Assembly: GCA_030613045.1 (NCBI GenBank)
Contig: JAUWMS010000035.1
Coordinates: 1 to 10,819 of the forward strand
DNA length: 10,819 nt
Source: Candidatus Latescibacterota bacterium
Lineage (GTDB): Bacteria; Latescibacterota; 4484-107
Reading direction: 5' to 3'
Under the pieces are notes generated by a model. It was not told the origin of the DNA. It was given only the letters and a program-made list of their open reading frames with translations, and made no database searches. This document shows, one piece after another, positions 3,638 through 10,819 of this stretch. Both the position numbers and the translations under genes were made by a program. How positions within the stretch are numbered: the stretch's first letter is position 1; every line of letters begins with the position of its first letter.

Positions 3638-3666
3638 TTGACAACGAAGGGGAAATAGCGTATCAT
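3638..3666 (+). promoter_or_regulatory. Sigma-70 promoter of the ECF sigma operon
   Basis: A perfect TTGACA (3638-3643), exactly 17 bp, then TATCAT (3661-3666, five of six matches to TATAAT). It lies after the terminator and 214 bp before the sigma factor gene, leaving a leader of about 200 bases. It is the best promoter match in the window. Confidence 0.75.
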
Positions 3667-3879: not shown

Positions 3880-4512
3880 ATGGGAGAAGCGAGTGTGCTT
3901 ATGGCCGGGCCGAATGGCGGACGACTCGATCGTTCCGATGAAGAGCTGCTTCAGGACACCGTCGGCGGGGATCTCCGGGCCTTCGACGTCATCGTCCGAC
4001 GATACAGGGATCGGCTGCTCAATTTCGTCTTTCGATTCCTCGGCGACCGAACGGCGGCGGAGGACGTGGTACAGGAAACTTTTCTGCGGGTCTTTCGTAA
4101 AAGTGGGGAGTATCATGCCTCCGCGCGTTTCTCCACATGGCTTTTTACCATAGCGGGAAATTTGGCCAAAAGCGAGCTCAGACGGCGAAAACGAGGGCGT
4201 TTCACTTCACTGGGGTGGAACGAGGAGGCGGAGCAACACATAGAAATCCCGGACGATCGTCCGCGGCCCGATGCCTTTGCGGAAACCGAAATCGCGACCG
4301 AAGCCATCCAGAAGGCCATTGAATCGCTTCCGCCCAATCATAGACAGGTGGTCATTCTCAGCGATATTCAGGGCATGGCTTATGAGGAAATCGCTCAAAT
4401 TGTGGGCTGTCCCGTGGGCACGGTAAAATCACGGATCAACCGGGGGCGGTTGCGCCTTCAGAATAAATTAGAGCGGCTGGGCTATCTTCCCGATTCGATG
4501 GAGGCCGAATAA
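3880..4512 (+). CDS. RNA polymerase ECF sigma factor (RpoE/SigW-like)
   Basis: 210 aa from ATG 3880, or 203 aa from ATG 3901, which has the better ribosome binding site (GGGAGAAG, 3882-3889). ECF sigma factors direct RNA polymerase to stress promoters. Region 2 lies at about 34-104, with FDVIVRRYRDRLLNFVFRFL, the core-binding segment DRTAAEDVVQETFLRVFR (56-73) and FSTWLFTIAGNLAKSELRRRKR (84-105). Region 4 lies at about 142-197, with LPPNHRQVVILSDIQGMAYEEIA and the recognition helix region VGTVKSRINRGRLRLQ (179-194). An anti-sigma factor follows 97 bp downstream and an HtrA-like protein after that. This is the rpoE-rseA-degP type of order used for envelope stress. The family is certain; the specific regulon is not visible. 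Confidence 0.95.
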   Translation: MGEASVLMAGPNGGRLDRSDEELLQDTVGGDLRAFDVIVRRYRDRLLNFVFRFLGDRTAAEDVVQETFLRVFRKSGEYHASARFSTWLFTIAGNLAKSELRRRKRGRFTSLGWNEEAEQHIEIPDDRPRPDAFAETEIATEAIQKAIESLPPNHRQVVILSDIQGMAYEEIAQIVGCPVGTVKSRINRGRLRLQNKLERLGYLPDSMEAE

Positions 4513-4609: not shown

Positions 4610-5137
4610 ATGACGTGCAAAACGTGCCGTAAATGGATGTCCGAATTTCTCGATGGAAGTCTGGACGTGTGGAGAAAAAGAGACTTCGACGAGCATTTGA
4701 AGGGTTGCCCGGCATGTAGAAATCAACTACATACCATGCAGGTTCTTCAAAAGACGCTGGCTCACCTGCCTCCGATCCGGCCTTCCTCCCACTTCCACTT
4801 TGCCCTCCGGGCAAGGCTTACAGAGGAACTGGGCCGCGGGAAACGATTCCGGAGCGGGTTCCGTTTGTGGGGTTTGTATAGAAGGCCGATCCTGGTCGCC
4901 GCTTCCTTAGCTTTGTTGATTGTAAGCTCGATCCGTCTGAGTCGCCACGAGCCGACTGAGCCTATGCGGACTTCCGAACGGATTGTGACGCACTACATAC
5001 TCGAGCGCATTTCCCCTTCCGACCGGAGCGCTTCAATCTCCCTCAATTCGGATTCAAACGTTCAGTGCGCCACGCCGGATACGGTTTTCGTTCCAGATCA
5101 GACCGTCTCCGGCCGGATCCGAACGGTCAGTTTTTGA
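4610..5137 (+). CDS. Membrane anti-sigma factor with zinc-finger (ZAS/zf-HC2) domain
   Basis: 175 aa. The N-terminus carries the anti-sigma zinc-finger pattern: C3/C6, then H29-x3-C33-x2-C36 (HLKGCPAC). This class binds and silences the cognate ECF sigma factor at the inner membrane until a signal triggers release. One membrane helix is predicted at about 93-108 (PILVAASLALLIVSSI), flanked on the cytoplasmic side by a basic stretch (GRGKRFRSGFR). About 65 residues form a short periplasmic tail with no domain I recognise. The gene starts 97 bp after the sigma gene and is followed by an HtrA-like protein. The likely circuit is proteolytic or conformational release of the sigma factor in response to envelope state. 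The call is firm; the signal is unknown. Confidence 0.9.
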   Translation: MTCKTCRKWMSEFLDGSLDVWRKRDFDEHLKGCPACRNQLHTMQVLQKTLAHLPPIRPSSHFHFALRARLTEELGRGKRFRSGFRLWGLYRRPILVAASLALLIVSSIRLSRHEPTEPMRTSERIVTHYILERISPSDRSASISLNSDSNVQCATPDTVFVPDQTVSGRIRTVSF

Positions 5138-5144
5138 GAAGGTG

Positions 5145-5345
5145 CGTAAAACGTAAAACGTGAAACGTGAAATGCAACATTCCCTGCATGATTCACAAGT
5201 CTGAGGTTTCATGCCCGGGTTAGGGTTTTGCTTAAATTTTCTCAAAAAAGGAGTAGAGAAAAGGTTTCTATTTTTTCTCCAAATCCATCAATAATGCAGG
5301 ATTGGACGCGAGTTGCTGCCTTACGTTTTACGTTTCACGTTTTCC
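5145..5345. repeat. ACGTRAA repeats in inverted orientation
   Basis: Four 7-bp units (GTAAAAC, GTAAAAC, GTGAAAC, GTGAAAT) run from 5146, and TTACGTTTTACGTTTCACG at 5321-5339 is the same family inverted. The 20-mer CGTAAAACGTAAAACGTGAA at 5145-5164 recurs exactly at 8687-8706. The 234-bp gap between the anti-sigma and HtrA-like genes otherwise holds no gene and no clear terminator, so the two genes may be co-transcribed. Confidence 0.8.
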
Positions 5346-5370
5346 TTCTTCCTTTTTTTGGAATTTCCAG

Positions 5371-6378
5371 ATGAAACCTTTTCTTTTATTATCCATCGTG
5401 CTCCTGAGCATTGCTCCCATCGAATCTCCGCGATTTGCGTGGGGCGAAGACGGCGTTCTGGAGCGTATGGAAGATGAAATCGCCTCTATTGTGGGGAAAG
5501 CCCGTCCACTCGTGGTGAGCATCCGGGCCGATCACCCCGAACCGGGCCGAAACGCACGATGGCAGCGCAACGTGGGATCCGGCGTGGTGCTGAATTCCGA
5601 GGGCTACATCCTCACTGCGGAAAGCGTGATCCGTGGAGCGGAGCGCATCTCGGTGGTTGCGATCGCCGAACAAAAGTATGCTGCCGAACCCATTGGTTTC
5701 GATCCGGAATCGGGCCTCGCCGTGATCCGGGTCAAAGAAACCGGCTTCCCATCTCCGCTCTTTGGAGACTCGGACCGTGTGCAGATCGGGCGATGGACCC
5801 TCGTGGTCGGAAATTCCATGGGCGTGGTATCCGCCTCCGCCCTCGGTCTCATCACCGGATTTCGGGAGGGCGGAAGATGGATCCAGATCAACACGCGGAT
5901 CTTCCCCGGGAACGGAGGCGCACCTCTGTTCGACAGCAAGGGCTGCCTTATCGGCATCGTTATCGGCGAACTCTCCCCCCATCGTCCTGCCCCGTCTCCG
6001 TCCGGCGTTCCGGCCTCGGCGCTGGCGATTCCTATCAACGAAGCCCGCCGCGTGGCCCGACATCTGATCGCCTACGGAGAGATGACATACGGCTGGCTGG
6101 GCGTGACCGCCGGCCCGCCGAACCCTCCGTCTGAGGATCGGGTGATCATGGTGTGGCGGGTCGTTGAGCGCAGTCCCGCGCACAAAGCCGGCATCCGGCG
6201 CGGGGATCTCATTCTGTCGTACGAGGGGAGATCCCTCAAAAACGCATGGGAGCTGGCGCGCAGGGTGAGAACGACTTCCGTGGGACAGGTGGTGAACGTG
6301 GAACTAAAGCGGGCAGACCAGCGCATTTCCATACCCGTTCGGATCGAAAAAAAACCATCGTCCCGGCGTGTCCGTTGA
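5371..6378 (+). CDS. Exported HtrA/DegP-like pseudoprotease with PDZ domain
   Basis: 335 aa from ATG 5371. Residues 1-25 form a signal peptide (MKPFLLLSIVLLSIAP, cleavage near residue 25), so the product is periplasmic. Residues about 35-235 align with the HtrA trypsin-like domain (VGSGVVLNSEGYILT; FDPESGLAVIRV; PGNGGAPLFDSKGCLIGIVIG). Residues about 240-328 form one PDZ domain (YGWLGV, SPAHKAGIRRGDLIL). All triad positions are changed. The His of TNxHV is S85 (TAESV), the Asp of DLAV is G115 (GLAV), and the Ser of GNSGGPL is G182 (GNGGAPL). The reading frame is intact and the hydrophobic core is kept, so I call it a structured but non-proteolytic homologue, not a decayed gene. It probably belongs to the upstream sigma/anti-sigma operon, where it could sense or scaffold misfolded envelope proteins. 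The ribosome binding site is weak (GGAA). Confidence 0.9.
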   Translation: MKPFLLLSIVLLSIAPIESPRFAWGEDGVLERMEDEIASIVGKARPLVVSIRADHPEPGRNARWQRNVGSGVVLNSEGYILTAESVIRGAERISVVAIAEQKYAAEPIGFDPESGLAVIRVKETGFPSPLFGDSDRVQIGRWTLVVGNSMGVVSASALGLITGFREGGRWIQINTRIFPGNGGAPLFDSKGCLIGIVIGELSPHRPAPSPSGVPASALAIPINEARRVARHLIAYGEMTYGWLGVTAGPPNPPSEDRVIMVWRVVERSPAHKAGIRRGDLILSYEGRSLKNAWELARRVRTTSVGQVVNVELKRADQRISIPVRIEKKPSSRRVR

Positions 6379-7314: not shown

Positions 7315-8607
7315 TCAGGCAGCCTTAGCTTTTGCCTCGAAATTGAACGGATAGGTCCGCTTCGTCTGTTTCCGCCGTTTGTACGCCTTCGCCAGTTCTA
7401 AGAAAATTCCCACGTCGCTTTCCAGATCGGACTGGGTGCCGTCGAAATAAAACGTTCGGATGGGGATGTGGTCGTGATCGCGGCTGACTACGGGATAGAT
7501 CGCCTCGCACACGATACCGTTCATGCAGGTGAACGGGCTGATATCCACGATGCCGTCCGCGCCTTTTTTTTGCAGATAGATCGCCTTGCCTATGCTGAGC
7601 ACCATCTCCCCCAGCGCTCCGGTGTAAGGCAGATAGGGATAGCTGTAGTTCAGGACCTCCTGTACATGAGGCTCCTCGCAGCCTTTGAAATCTTCATGGA
7701 ACGGTTCCAACAACGCATGCTCATCCTTGCGCTGCACCGCGTTTTTGATCTTGGCGCCCAACATTTCCAGCGAAACCCGCTTGCCCTTCTCCCGGATATT
7801 GTCCTGCTGTTCGTTGTTGGTGTACCAAACCCACTCGGACACGTCGGAAAGCCAGCACTCCCCGCCTTCCGCCTCGATCTTTCGGACCAGATCCTCGTTG
7901 CTGAACGTATTCAACCGACAGAAAATTTCTCCGACCACGCCGATGAGGGGACGTTCGGGATCGTAGTGCGCGGGGATGGCGCGAAAGGCGTCCCGCGCCC
8001 GGGTCAGCGCACGGCGCATGTTCGCTAATTTCTGTTTGTGACTGATGCCCGGCTCCCGGATGGCGTCGCATACGTCGTTCAAAGAGGCTTCGAAGACTTG
8101 ATCCGAGTCGCCCTTGTTGATCTCGTAAGGGCGGGTTTTGAGCAGTATCTTCATCAAAATATCCGAGGACACCATAGCCCGCCAGGCGGTGCGGAGGACA
8201 TCCTGGCCCCCGATGTCTTCATAGCTGTTCTCGCTCGTGGGGGAAAGGATCATCACGTCCTCAAATCCGTTGTCGTCAAGCACCTTCCTTTGATAGATCA
8301 CATACTGCCCGAAACGACATGGGCCATTGGCCGTCATCATCATAAAGGCCGTTTTCTTAGGATCGAACCCTTCCTGTTCGGTGACACGCATAAAGTTTCC
8401 TAACGTCACCTTCTCCGGATAGCACTCATCTCCGGAGGTGTATTTATTCCCCAACTCCTTGGTGCGCTCGTCCGATGGCGGCGCGGGCCGAGCCTCCACT
8501 CCGATAGATTGAAACGTAGCTGCGATCACCCGCGCACCGCTGTAAGGCATGCGGGGAATGTAGAGGGTGCGTCCTTTTAGGCTGTGCTTGGACTTTTTAG
8601 TTGACAT
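7315..8607 (-). CDS. 2-hydroxyacyl-CoA dehydratase (HgdB)-like iron-sulfur protein
   Basis: 430 aa; ATG at 8607-8605 with AAGGAT (complement of 8613-8618) upstream. It resembles the C-terminal, HgdB-like part of the large acyl-CoA dehydratase activase-related proteins. Recognisable blocks are SGDECYPEKVTLGNFM (58-73, C62), TANGPCRFGQYVIYQ (92-106, C97), GVVGEIFCR (C230), a YSYPYLPYTGALGE segment (321-334) and DISPFTCMNGIVCEA (355-369, C361 and C367). These Cys are probable iron-sulfur ligands. The partner ATPase lies immediately upstream on the same strand. In characterised relatives the ATPase injects one electron into the cluster subunit, which then dehydrates 2-hydroxyacyl-CoA, reduces benzoyl-CoA or, in double-cubane proteins, reduces small molecules. 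The actual substrate cannot be read from this window, and a radical or redox repair role is equally open. Confidence 0.85.
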   Translation of the reverse strand: MSTKKSKHSLKGRTLYIPRMPYSGARVIAATFQSIGVEARPAPPSDERTKELGNKYTSGDECYPEKVTLGNFMRVTEQEGFDPKKTAFMMMTANGPCRFGQYVIYQRKVLDDNGFEDVMILSPTSENSYEDIGGQDVLRTAWRAMVSSDILMKILLKTRPYEINKGDSDQVFEASLNDVCDAIREPGISHKQKLANMRRALTRARDAFRAIPAHYDPERPLIGVVGEIFCRLNTFSNEDLVRKIEAEGGECWLSDVSEWVWYTNNEQQDNIREKGKRVSLEMLGAKIKNAVQRKDEHALLEPFHEDFKGCEEPHVQEVLNYSYPYLPYTGALGEMVLSIGKAIYLQKKGADGIVDISPFTCMNGIVCEAIYPVVSRDHDHIPIRTFYFDGTQSDLESDVGIFLELAKAYKRRKQTKRTYPFNFEAKAKAA

Positions 8608-8768: not shown

Positions 8769-10819
8769 TCACGCCGCCTTCCGCATCCACCATCTCAAAA
8801 ATCCCTTGCTGTCCAGATACGCCTCGCACCGGGTCATCGCGCCCGCGTCGTTGCTGTGTTCATCGAATTGGAGGCTCAGGAAGGGTTTGTTGCCCGAGGC
8901 ACCCCGTACGAAATGGCGGATGTAGGAGTCCGGCCCACACTTGAAATTCGTGATGTAGATGATGTGGAGATTGGGATGTGCTCCTACGATCCGGGCGGTC
9001 TGAAGAATTTTGCGGCCATAGTTCCAGAACATGTTGGCGTTGATGTCGGAGATGTCTATGCCCCAGAGCGGCAGGAAGTCCATCGGGATGACGTTCACGC
9101 CATAGTATTTGCGGAGCTTGCGGGGGATGTCCATGTTGATCCCCTTGTCGTGGATGTTGTACGGACGTCCCACCAACACCATGCCCAACTCGTCTTTCTC
9201 CTCAAGAATGGCGAGCGCCTCTTTGCCCGCTTGCTGGAGCTTCAGCTTGAAATCCGATTGCGCTGCGTACGCCCGCTGGATCGCCCACTCTACCTTGCTT
9301 TTAGGAATTCCGAACGGTTTGGCAAACGCACGAAGCTCTCCCCTCACCGCGTCCAGCCCGCGCCGGAAATGGACCGTTGGGATCAAAAAGCGGTCCATAT
9401 AAGGCTCGAAATGCGGCGCGCGCTGGAGCACATACGGCAGGGTCTGTCCCCACGCGCATACGTGCGATTCTGTATTCGGATCGTCCGTTTCCTCGTTGAG
9501 CACGTTAGGCTGGAAAATATAATCCACACCCTTGTCGAGCAGATTCTGAATGTGCCCGTGCGCCACGCGGATCGGGAAGCACGGCTCGGCCACCGTAGCC
9601 TCTACGCCGTCGTCCCGAATTTTTCGATCCGTGGGATCCGACAGCACCACCTCGAAGCCCAACTCGGACAGGAACGTGGCCCAGAAGGGCAGGCGATCGT
9701 ACATATACATACTCCGCCCCAATCCGATTCTCTTGCCGCGTCCCGCATGCCGCTCTTTGATTTCTTCATAGGCCGATAGGAGCGCTTCCTCGCGGAATGC
9801 CATCAGATCGGGGATCACCGGCTTTTTATCCACCTTGGCGCGTTTGCGGTATCGGTCGGAGCACTTGTCGCCCCAATACGTCTTCTCGCCGTCCACCGTG
9901 ACTTCGCGAATATCGCAGGCATTCGAACAGCCCTTGCACACAAACTCGCGGACCGTGTAATTGACTTTATTCAAATCGTAGCCCCGGAACCGGGTTTTTG
10001 TATCTGTCATCGCGATCTTCTCTTTGGCCAACAGCGCGGCTCCGATGGCTCCGACCACGCCGTTGTGCGGCGGAACGATGATTTCCTTGTCGAGCACCAT
10101 GGAAAACGCTGCGGCCACCGAATCGTTATACGCAGTGCCGCCCTGAAAATAGATGACGTCGCCGATCCTGCGTTCCCGCACCACGCGATTGAGATAATTG
10201 TGCACAATGGAAAAGGCCAGGCCCGCCACGAGGTCTTCCTTGGACGCGCCCCGCTGTTGATACGAAGCCACGTCCTGCCCCATAAACACAGTGCAGCGTT
10301 CGCCCAATTTGAGGGGATGTTCGGATTGAAGCGCCATCTCGCCAAATTGTCCGATGATATTGATCTGGAGCTCCTCAGCTTGCTCCTCCAAAAACGAACC
10401 CGTGCCCGCCGCACACGCATCGTTCATCGCAAAATCCACGACCACGCCGTCCTCGATGCTGATGAACTTGGAGTCCTGGCCTCCGATCTCGAAGATGGTA
10501 TCCACTTCCTTGTCAATCAGGCGGTTTCCGATGTACATCGCGCCGGTCTTGTGCGCGGTGATCTCGTCCTTGATCGTATCCGCGCCGGTCAACTCCCCGA
10601 CCAATTCCCGCCCGGAACCGGTGCTGCCCACGCCCCGAATCGCGATCCTGGACCCGATCTCGTCGGCGATCTCCTCCAATCCCTTGTTCACCACCTCGAT
10701 GGGCCGTGCGTCCGTCTTCGTGTAGATCTCCTTGATCACGTCGCCATCCTCGTCAATCACGACCAGATTCGTGCTCACCGATCCTACGTCAATTCCAAGA
10801 TACGCGTCCACCACCCCTT
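8769..10819 (-). CDS. Acyl-CoA dehydratase activase (HgdC/BadF-type ATPase) with DUF2229-like region, 5' end outside window
   Basis: At least 681 aa are visible; the frame stays open to the right edge, so the N-terminus is probably missing. Residue numbers count from the GTG at 10814. An ASKHA ATPase domain spans about 5-266: YLGIDVGSVSTN (phosphate loop 1), GVGSTGSGRE, EIGGQDSKFI (phosphate loop 2), NDACAAGTGSFLE with C134, and GERCTVF with C174. C134 and C174 match the two HgdC cysteines that bridge one [4Fe-4S] cluster between subunits. A second cysteine set follows, C293-x2-C296-x3-C300 and C318. Then comes a DUF2229-like region (about 360-600; MYDRLPFWATFLSELGFEVV, AEPCFPIRVAHGH) and a C-terminal segment with C626 and C663. 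Relatives often have two tandem ATPase domains; the GIDVGSVSTNLVVID start resembles the second. It should pass electrons to the 430-aa neighbour. Confidence 0.88.
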   Translation of the reverse strand, partial: GVVDAYLGIDVGSVSTNLVVIDEDGDVIKEIYTKTDARPIEVVNKGLEEIADEIGSRIAIRGVGSTGSGRELVGELTGADTIKDEITAHKTGAMYIGNRLIDKEVDTIFEIGGQDSKFISIEDGVVVDFAMNDACAAGTGSFLEEQAEELQINIIGQFGEMALQSEHPLKLGERCTVFMGQDVASYQQRGASKEDLVAGLAFSIVHNYLNRVVRERRIGDVIYFQGGTAYNDSVAAAFSMVLDKEIIVPPHNGVVGAIGAALLAKEKIAMTDTKTRFRGYDLNKVNYTVREFVCKGCSNACDIREVTVDGEKTYWGDKCSDRYRKRAKVDKKPVIPDLMAFREEALLSAYEEIKERHAGRGKRIGLGRSMYMYDRLPFWATFLSELGFEVVLSDPTDRKIRDDGVEATVAEPCFPIRVAHGHIQNLLDKGVDYIFQPNVLNEETDDPNTESHVCAWGQTLPYVLQRAPHFEPYMDRFLIPTVHFRRGLDAVRGELRAFAKPFGIPKSKVEWAIQRAYAAQSDFKLKLQQAGKEALAILEEKDELGMVLVGRPYNIHDKGINMDIPRKLRKYYGVNVIPMDFLPLWGIDISDINANMFWNYGRKILQTARIVGAHPNLHIIYITNFKCGPDSYIRHFVRGASGNKPFLSLQFDEHSNDAGAMTRCEAYLDSKGFLRWWMRKAA

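Follow-up and report, generated by a model that had tools for sequence, protein, structure and literature searches.

What does an HtrA-like protein do beside the genes of an ECF sigma factor and its membrane anti-sigma factor when it has lost the residues needed for proteolysis? HtrAs that regulate anti-sigma factors are textbook proteases, and the sensing of outer-membrane damage by DegS/RseA through PDZ-triggered proteolysis is equally well established. The window (the whole stretch of DNA analysed, 10,819 nucleotides of a contig from a Candidatus Latescibacterota bacterium) carries the following features.

3880..4512, + strand: ECF sigma factor, with Sigma70_r2 and Sigma70_r4_2 matches and an orthologue in locus L004
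4610..5137, + strand: anti-sigma factor, 175 aa, with a PF13490 zf-HC2 match
4616..4720, + strand: cytoplasmic zinc-binding anti-sigma domain (zf-HC2), from a profile match
4886..4936, + strand: predicted single transmembrane segment of the anti-sigma factor (about residues 93-109), from sequence
5126..5134, + strand: anti-sigma C-terminal V-S-F-COOH, proposed PDZ ligand (stop codon at 5135-5137)
5371..6378, + strand: HtrA-like pseudoprotease, 335 aa (P0001), a trypsin-like domain followed by a PDZ domain
5371..5445, + strand: signal-peptide-like N-terminus (about residues 1-25), from sequence inspection only
5623..5625, + strand: Ser85 codon AGC, at the catalytic His position
5713..5715, + strand: Gly115 codon GGC, at the catalytic Asp position
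5848..5883, + strand: shortened segment (residues 160-171), taken as loop L3 from DegS anatomy
5914..5916, + strand: Gly182 codon GGA, at the catalytic Ser position
6088..6360, + strand: PDZ domain (about residues 240-330), with the carboxylate-binding loop GWLGV at 241-245

The anti-sigma start codon (ATG, MTCKTC...) was picked by comparison with L004. A gap of 233 bases (5138-5370) separates the anti-sigma gene from the HtrA-like gene, unlike in many other members, where the two genes nearly touch or overlap. A simple promoter scan gave 3 sites against 1.6 expected and is uninformative; a sigma-70-like site ahead of the sigma gene (3638-3666) and a weak site at 5364-5392 are among them. Elsewhere in the window, on the minus strand, a long frame at 7315-8607 resembles a CoA-dehydratase activase (with a weak DUF2229 match below the cut-off), and a second long frame at 8769-10817 is presumably also CoA-dehydratase-activase-like, judged from its sequence.

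The HtrA-like protein and its lost triad

An earlier note on this DNA, made from the sequence alone, described an HtrA homologue whose triad is replaced by Ser85, Gly115 and Gly182, and this was confirmed. The protein has the domain order of the HtrA/Deg (S1C) fold family, a trypsin-like domain followed by PDZ, and the catalytic triad of active members of that family is absent. Its N-terminus is hydrophobic and signal-peptide-like, at low confidence in the predicted model, and either a signal peptide or an anchor is possible. A Pfam scan (E 0.01) returned Trypsin_2, three PDZ models, a weak Trypsin match and nothing else, with one PDZ region only. NCBIfam DegS/DegP models match, yet far under their cut-offs; TIGR02037, the Do-family endopeptidase model, scores 177.8 bits against a curated cut-off of 416.2. 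The predicted model of the protein retains the HtrA fold. Its tied VIA top matches include peptide-bound AlgW and DegS, and the best 50 matches listed per search were HtrA-type chains. An alternative triad elsewhere in the domain was ruled out, as there is no His within residues 56-203. The catalytic residues that DegS/AlgW-type cutting of an anti-sigma factor would need are absent.

The loss was also thought to be long-standing, and the relatives bear this out. In a search of 5.8 billion protein sequences, in which the 7996 candidates with most shared words were scored and the best 120 taken, nine close relatives stood among the matches listed, followed by a gap down to about 38% identity. 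(Throughout, protein searches scored about 8000 candidates with most shared words and considered at most the best 120 of these.) These nine are 66-86% identical to the window protein in the alignment, and the normal triad is present in none of them: the Asp and Ser positions are Gly in 9/9, and in place of the His there is Ser (seven proteins), Cys (one) or Gly (one). Between the window and L004 (Latescibacteria MAG 4484_107), a single pair compared by the Nei-Gojobori method with our own script, dN/dS was 0.29 for the HtrA-like gene, 0.13 for the sigma gene and 0.31 for the anti-sigma gene. Five other pairs of HtrA-like genes gave 0.12-0.22. When the one pair was split by domain, the PDZ was seen to evolve faster than the dead protease domain (0.41 vs 0.21). 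The low dN/dS shows that the dead protease domain is maintained by purifying selection.

A separate, active-type HtrA is present in the same genome (3.14 Mb, 580 contigs, 78% complete), as one further Trypsin_2 protein with an intact HDS triad on contig C168.

Recurrence of the unit and of the triad loss

The phyla concerned are known mostly from metagenomes. A unit of ECF sigma factor, one-TM anti-sigma factor and HtrA-like protein was found at 84 loci in several phyla, where proteins of the group carry the names Latescibacteria, candidate division KSB1, Calditrichaeota, Gemmatimonadetes and Zixiibacteriota. Of the 64 genomes of the window's phylum (G000-G063), 29 have the tandem trio by a tally that includes G025, in which the sigma gene is off the contig. 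By group it is seen in f1 (2/2), f4 (15/15), f9 (6/6), f10 (1/1), f6 (2/2) and f5 (3/4), and a non-exhaustive search did not find it in f2, f3, f7 and f8. The phyla of G175, G198 and G200 have it in 13/16, 8/8 and 2/4 genomes, respectively (in the last, the sigma gene is off the contig in G337). In the phylum of G383, with 82 genomes, 28 of the best 30 loci hold the trio; the two that show none, L219 and L231, both start at contig ends. It also occurs in G121, G165, G379 and G102. No shared fourth gene was evident downstream of the HtrA-like gene when the first same-strand translation was judged by eye at 10 loci (L053, L044, L127, L129, L131, L132, L133, L134, L136 and L144; L129 has no such translation), the sole exception being a similar gene in L131 and L134.

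One script applied to all loci yielded 166 distinct HtrA frames. The operon frames were reduced from 91 to 84 by the removal of seven truncated second copies (L061, L064, L066, L068, L069, L070 and L073); a check revealed no further truncated copies. An anti-sigma gene lies directly upstream of each of the 84, and a sigma gene is visible in 82 of them. The catalytic His is kept in 0/84 operon frames and the full HDS triad in 73/75 HtrA frames without an anti-sigma neighbour, an association that does not come from a random sample: resemblance to pseudo-HtrAs was the criterion by which the loci were collected, and relatedness among them is common, both the 84 and the 75 including several close relatives. 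In the two non-HDS exceptions, L219 and L231, the frame starts at a distance of 340 and 207 bases, respectively, from a contig end, and any genes upstream are out of view. Not every operon frame has lost the whole triad, as that of the window has: Asp is kept in 25/84 operon frames, Ser in 21/84 and both in 10/84, with none of the three residues left in 48/84. The proposal that the earlier note made for one locus, an HtrA that does not cut and is encoded within a sigma/anti-sigma operon, is borne out by these sequences, in which the arrangement recurs.

At one locus, L141, an HtrA with the HDS triad follows an ECF sigma/anti-sigma pair at a distance of about 1.2 kb, and the anti-sigma factor of that pair ends in HFLQ. 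Proximity to a sigma gene is therefore not, on its own, associated with loss of the triad.

The His-less frames number 52 at less than 65% identity. In a tree of 92 representatives one change separates the frames with His from those without (SH-aLRT 99), the tree being made by a quick method with its root not inferred and with long branches present. Such a tree fits the His having been lost once, long ago, and the loss then having been inherited or transferred.

The anti-sigma C-terminus and the PDZ domain

All 84 operon anti-sigma factors have a hydrophobic segment (best 19-residue Kyte-Doolittle window at least 1.66), followed by 28-180 further residues (median 87). The last residue is aromatic (F/Y/W) in 82/84, typically as V/I-x-F-COOH: F in 75, Y in 6 and W in 1, with P and L once each. 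The only two non-aromatic ends are TFSP in L122 (G121) and AGGL in L138 (G102). In the G121 protein a Phe stands third from the end, and either the frame or a biological difference may account for this. The window anti-sigma factor ends in V-S-F, which has the hydrophobic-x-hydrophobic-COOH pattern of PDZ ligands; its tail is modelled with low confidence, which is usual for flexible tails.

The pattern is retained among distant members. In a divergent subset of 50 anti-sigma factors (less than 50% identity, median pair 22%) the end is aromatic in 48 and position -2 is hydrophobic in 38 (V 21, I 10; V/I/L 33), with no hydrophobic residue there in the remaining 12. Over the last 15 residues of these 50 proteins, position 0 carries 3.38 bits of information and position -2 carries 1.54, with no other position above 1.06. 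As a control, zf-HC2 proteins without an HtrA neighbour were taken from operon-holding genomes, and only 3/75 had an aromatic end (1 F, 2 Y). The difference between 48/50 and 3/75 gives a Fisher p of 2e-28, a value that ignores relatedness. The controls comprised 13/20 loci and 22/30 loci (the remainder being operon copies) together with 40 hand-picked places, and a neighbour was sought on the same strand within a stretch of about 3 kb. Other proteins of the unit end differently: the sigma proteins have V, L or K as last residue in 49/82, and the pseudo-HtrAs themselves end in F in 10/84 and in Y in 2/84 (one frame is cut). In L144, L158 and their relatives (G175 phylum) the pseudo-HtrA ends ...DDGF, a sequence that could be a ligand for the PDZ of the same protein or of a neighbour.

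Outer-membrane proteins can carry a similar end. Among Omp85-family proteins of nine genomes of the window's phylum, 15/19 end in F or Y, with some near copies in this count (19 of 20 loci, L092 left out), and one of those counted, a BamA-like protein of the window's genome, ends FGKSF.

The proposed receptor for the anti-sigma tail is the PDZ domain of the HtrA-like protein. In most operon members the carboxylate-binding loop is of the x-L-G-V kind (WLGV 39, WLGI 12 and KLGV 11, n=84), with exceptions that include WMGG (L014) and FLGT (L187), and the GWLGV of the window protein is of the DegS/AlgW type. In DegS, loop L3 relays PDZ occupancy to the active site. We take the segment between residues 159 and 172 to be this loop, by comparison with DegS anatomy. 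It has 11-12 residues in 74/84 operon members and 16-18 in the other 10, the latter overlapping the short end of active HtrAs (L141, 17); in the 75 non-operon HtrAs the median is 21, and 11 is found only in L219 and L231. On this assignment, the window protein lacks a long L3 sensor loop of the DegS/AlgW type. Read in this way, the HtrA-like proteins are putative binders that have kept the binding anatomy and have lost catalysis and, in most, its coupling.

An AlphaFold co-fold of the anti-sigma factor and HtrA of L007 did not dock the tail (pLDDT 35 and 31, blocks 201-220); the two were folded as a fused chain read through the stop, so that the Phe carboxylate was not free, from 25 sequences only. 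The result does not count in favour of binding. Beyond the aligned end of the PDZ, 75/84 operon HtrA-like proteins (e.g. L216, L144 and L007) have 38-75 further residues that resemble a short coiled coil, with a helix at 584-609 in the L007 model. The window protein does not have this extension.

Proposed role, alternatives and known systems

At the level of sequence it is established that the catalytic residues are lost, that the unit and the anti-sigma tail are conserved, and that the PDZ loop is kept. The reading that we prefer, with a probability of about 0.65, is that sigma factor, anti-sigma factor and HtrA-like protein form one envelope-stress unit, in which a non-cutting HtrA-like receptor would bind the anti-sigma tail through its PDZ and so set the stability or state of the anti-sigma factor. 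The membrane anti-sigma factor would hold the ECF sigma factor and present a flexible periplasmic tail ending in a hydrophobic-x-aromatic carboxylate (V-S-F in the window), and the HtrA-like protein, its proteolysis lost, would serve as the periplasmic receptor. Binding of the tail by the PDZ of this protein is the step that we hold to be quite likely, given the conserved end and the kept loop. As for the direction of effect, the likeliest version is that the HtrA-like protein shields the anti-sigma factor in an RseB-like role, and here we regard the balance as even. Unfolded outer-membrane proteins, many of which likewise have a C-terminal Phe, may compete for the PDZ groove, and the displaced anti-sigma factor would then be freed for another protease; the competition is a tentative suggestion, somewhat less probable than the shielding. 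Equally tentative is the broader picture of an ancient multi-phylum system, in which the anti-sigma factor would mimic the C-terminal signal of outer-membrane proteins, be latched to the PDZ of a dead HtrA and be displaced by unfolded outer-membrane proteins. The earlier note had offered a folding-state sensor, a chaperone or a regulator of the anti-sigma factor as possible roles; the last of these gains indirect support from the recurrence and the PDZ-ligand-like C-terminus, and it is by inference that we choose among the three.

The aromatic tail could alternatively be a degron, or a mimic of one, that is read by an active HtrA or a tail-specific protease, with the pseudo-HtrA acting only as a decoy or cap. 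C-terminal aromatic peptides are recognition signals for the DegS and AlgW PDZ domains in the accessible parts of two papers (PMC8545111, PMC8103513), and an intact-triad HtrA is at hand on C168. We nevertheless consider this unlikely, since the tail accompanies a pseudo-HtrA neighbour and is seen in only 3/75 other zf-HC2 proteins, though many such genomes hold HDS HtrAs. It is more doubtful still that the pseudo-HtrA is a regulatory subunit that tunes an active HtrA in mixed oligomers, in the manner of MamO and MamE, with the operon merely controlling its expression. This idea would leave the conserved anti-sigma C-terminus and the linkage to the anti-sigma gene unexplained. The HtrA fold kept in the model and the two trypsin-like genes of the genome agree with it, as does the requirement of MamE-dependent proteolysis for MamO, a non-catalytic HtrA relative; a physical interaction of MamO with MamE was, however, not detected either, according to the portion of the source available (PMC4794232).

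A plain periplasmic chaperone, i.e. a DegP-like holdase under sigma control without direct contact with the anti-sigma factor, is an improbable reading. DegP has two PDZ domains, whereas one PDZ region was matched in the window protein, and neither the anti-sigma tail nor the recurring gene order would be expected of a chaperone, even if proteolytically inactive HtrA variants retain chaperone-like activity, as the part of the source available reports (PMC11642142). Loss of all three catalytic residues might suggest a decaying pseudogene or a sequencing or assembly error, an explanation of negligible probability that is ruled out by the intact frames, the dN/dS of 0.29, the same losses in nine close relatives and the recurrence over phyla.

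If the preferred reading, a PDZ receptor for the anti-sigma tail, is true, it makes the sharp prediction that a three-residue tail acts as a PDZ ligand, and it shows a protease sensor converted to a binding switch. It would also allow better annotation of genes that now go by the name 'serine protease Do' or 'S1C family serine protease', with the caution that Trypsin_2 and PDZ matches next to an ECF sigma gene do not necessarily mark a protease.

The unit is like DegS-RseA-sigmaE of E. coli and AlgW-MucA of P. aeruginosa in having an ECF sigma factor, a membrane anti-sigma factor and an HtrA fold that carries a single PDZ. In those two systems the HtrA works as an active site-1 protease, whereas here the triad is absent and the L3-region segment is short. 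MucD, encoded in the algT-muc cluster, is likewise an active HtrA protease, in contrast to the proteins described here, which lack the catalytic His. The source of the ligand differs as well: in the accessible text of two papers the DegS PDZ reads YxF and the AlgW PDZ reads WVF on outer-membrane proteins or MucE (PMC8545111, PMC8103513), whereas here the ligand-like tail is on the anti-sigma factor itself. As a proposed periplasmic partner without enzymatic activity, one that would govern how accessible the anti-sigma factor is, the HtrA-like protein resembles RseB/MucB. RseB is encoded in the rpoE operon, according to the part available (PMC8103513), and RseB/MucB have lipid-binding domains, again from partial text (PMC8545111), unlike the HtrA fold with PDZ of the window protein.

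MamO of magnetotactic bacteria is also a bacterial HtrA-derived pseudoprotease with a new function. Its His and Asp are retained and its Ser is replaced by Thr; it also has a di-His metal site and a TauE-like domain, and the portion of its description available showed no sigma/anti-sigma linkage (PMC4794232). A TauE-like transporter domain of the MamO type was not found in the window protein by the Pfam scan (E 0.01). AtDeg16 and the inactive second domain of AtDeg7 are further Deg/HtrA domains with mutated triads, and no link of inactive plant Deg proteins to sigma regulation appears in the accessible part of that source (PMC3473262). Among the papers listed from the open full-text literature (titles and abstract starts; subscription papers mostly absent) there was no catalytically dead HtrA paired with an ECF anti-sigma factor, in keeping with the view that such proteins are little described; within the same scope, no anti-sigma factor was given a PDZ-ligand tail. 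HtrA-derived pseudoproteases are thus already known, and what appears to be new here is the PDZ-ligand-like aromatic tail on the partner anti-sigma factors. If the tentative displacement by outer-membrane proteins also holds, damage would be read in these bacteria by competitive binding, and not by the allosteric activation of a protease.
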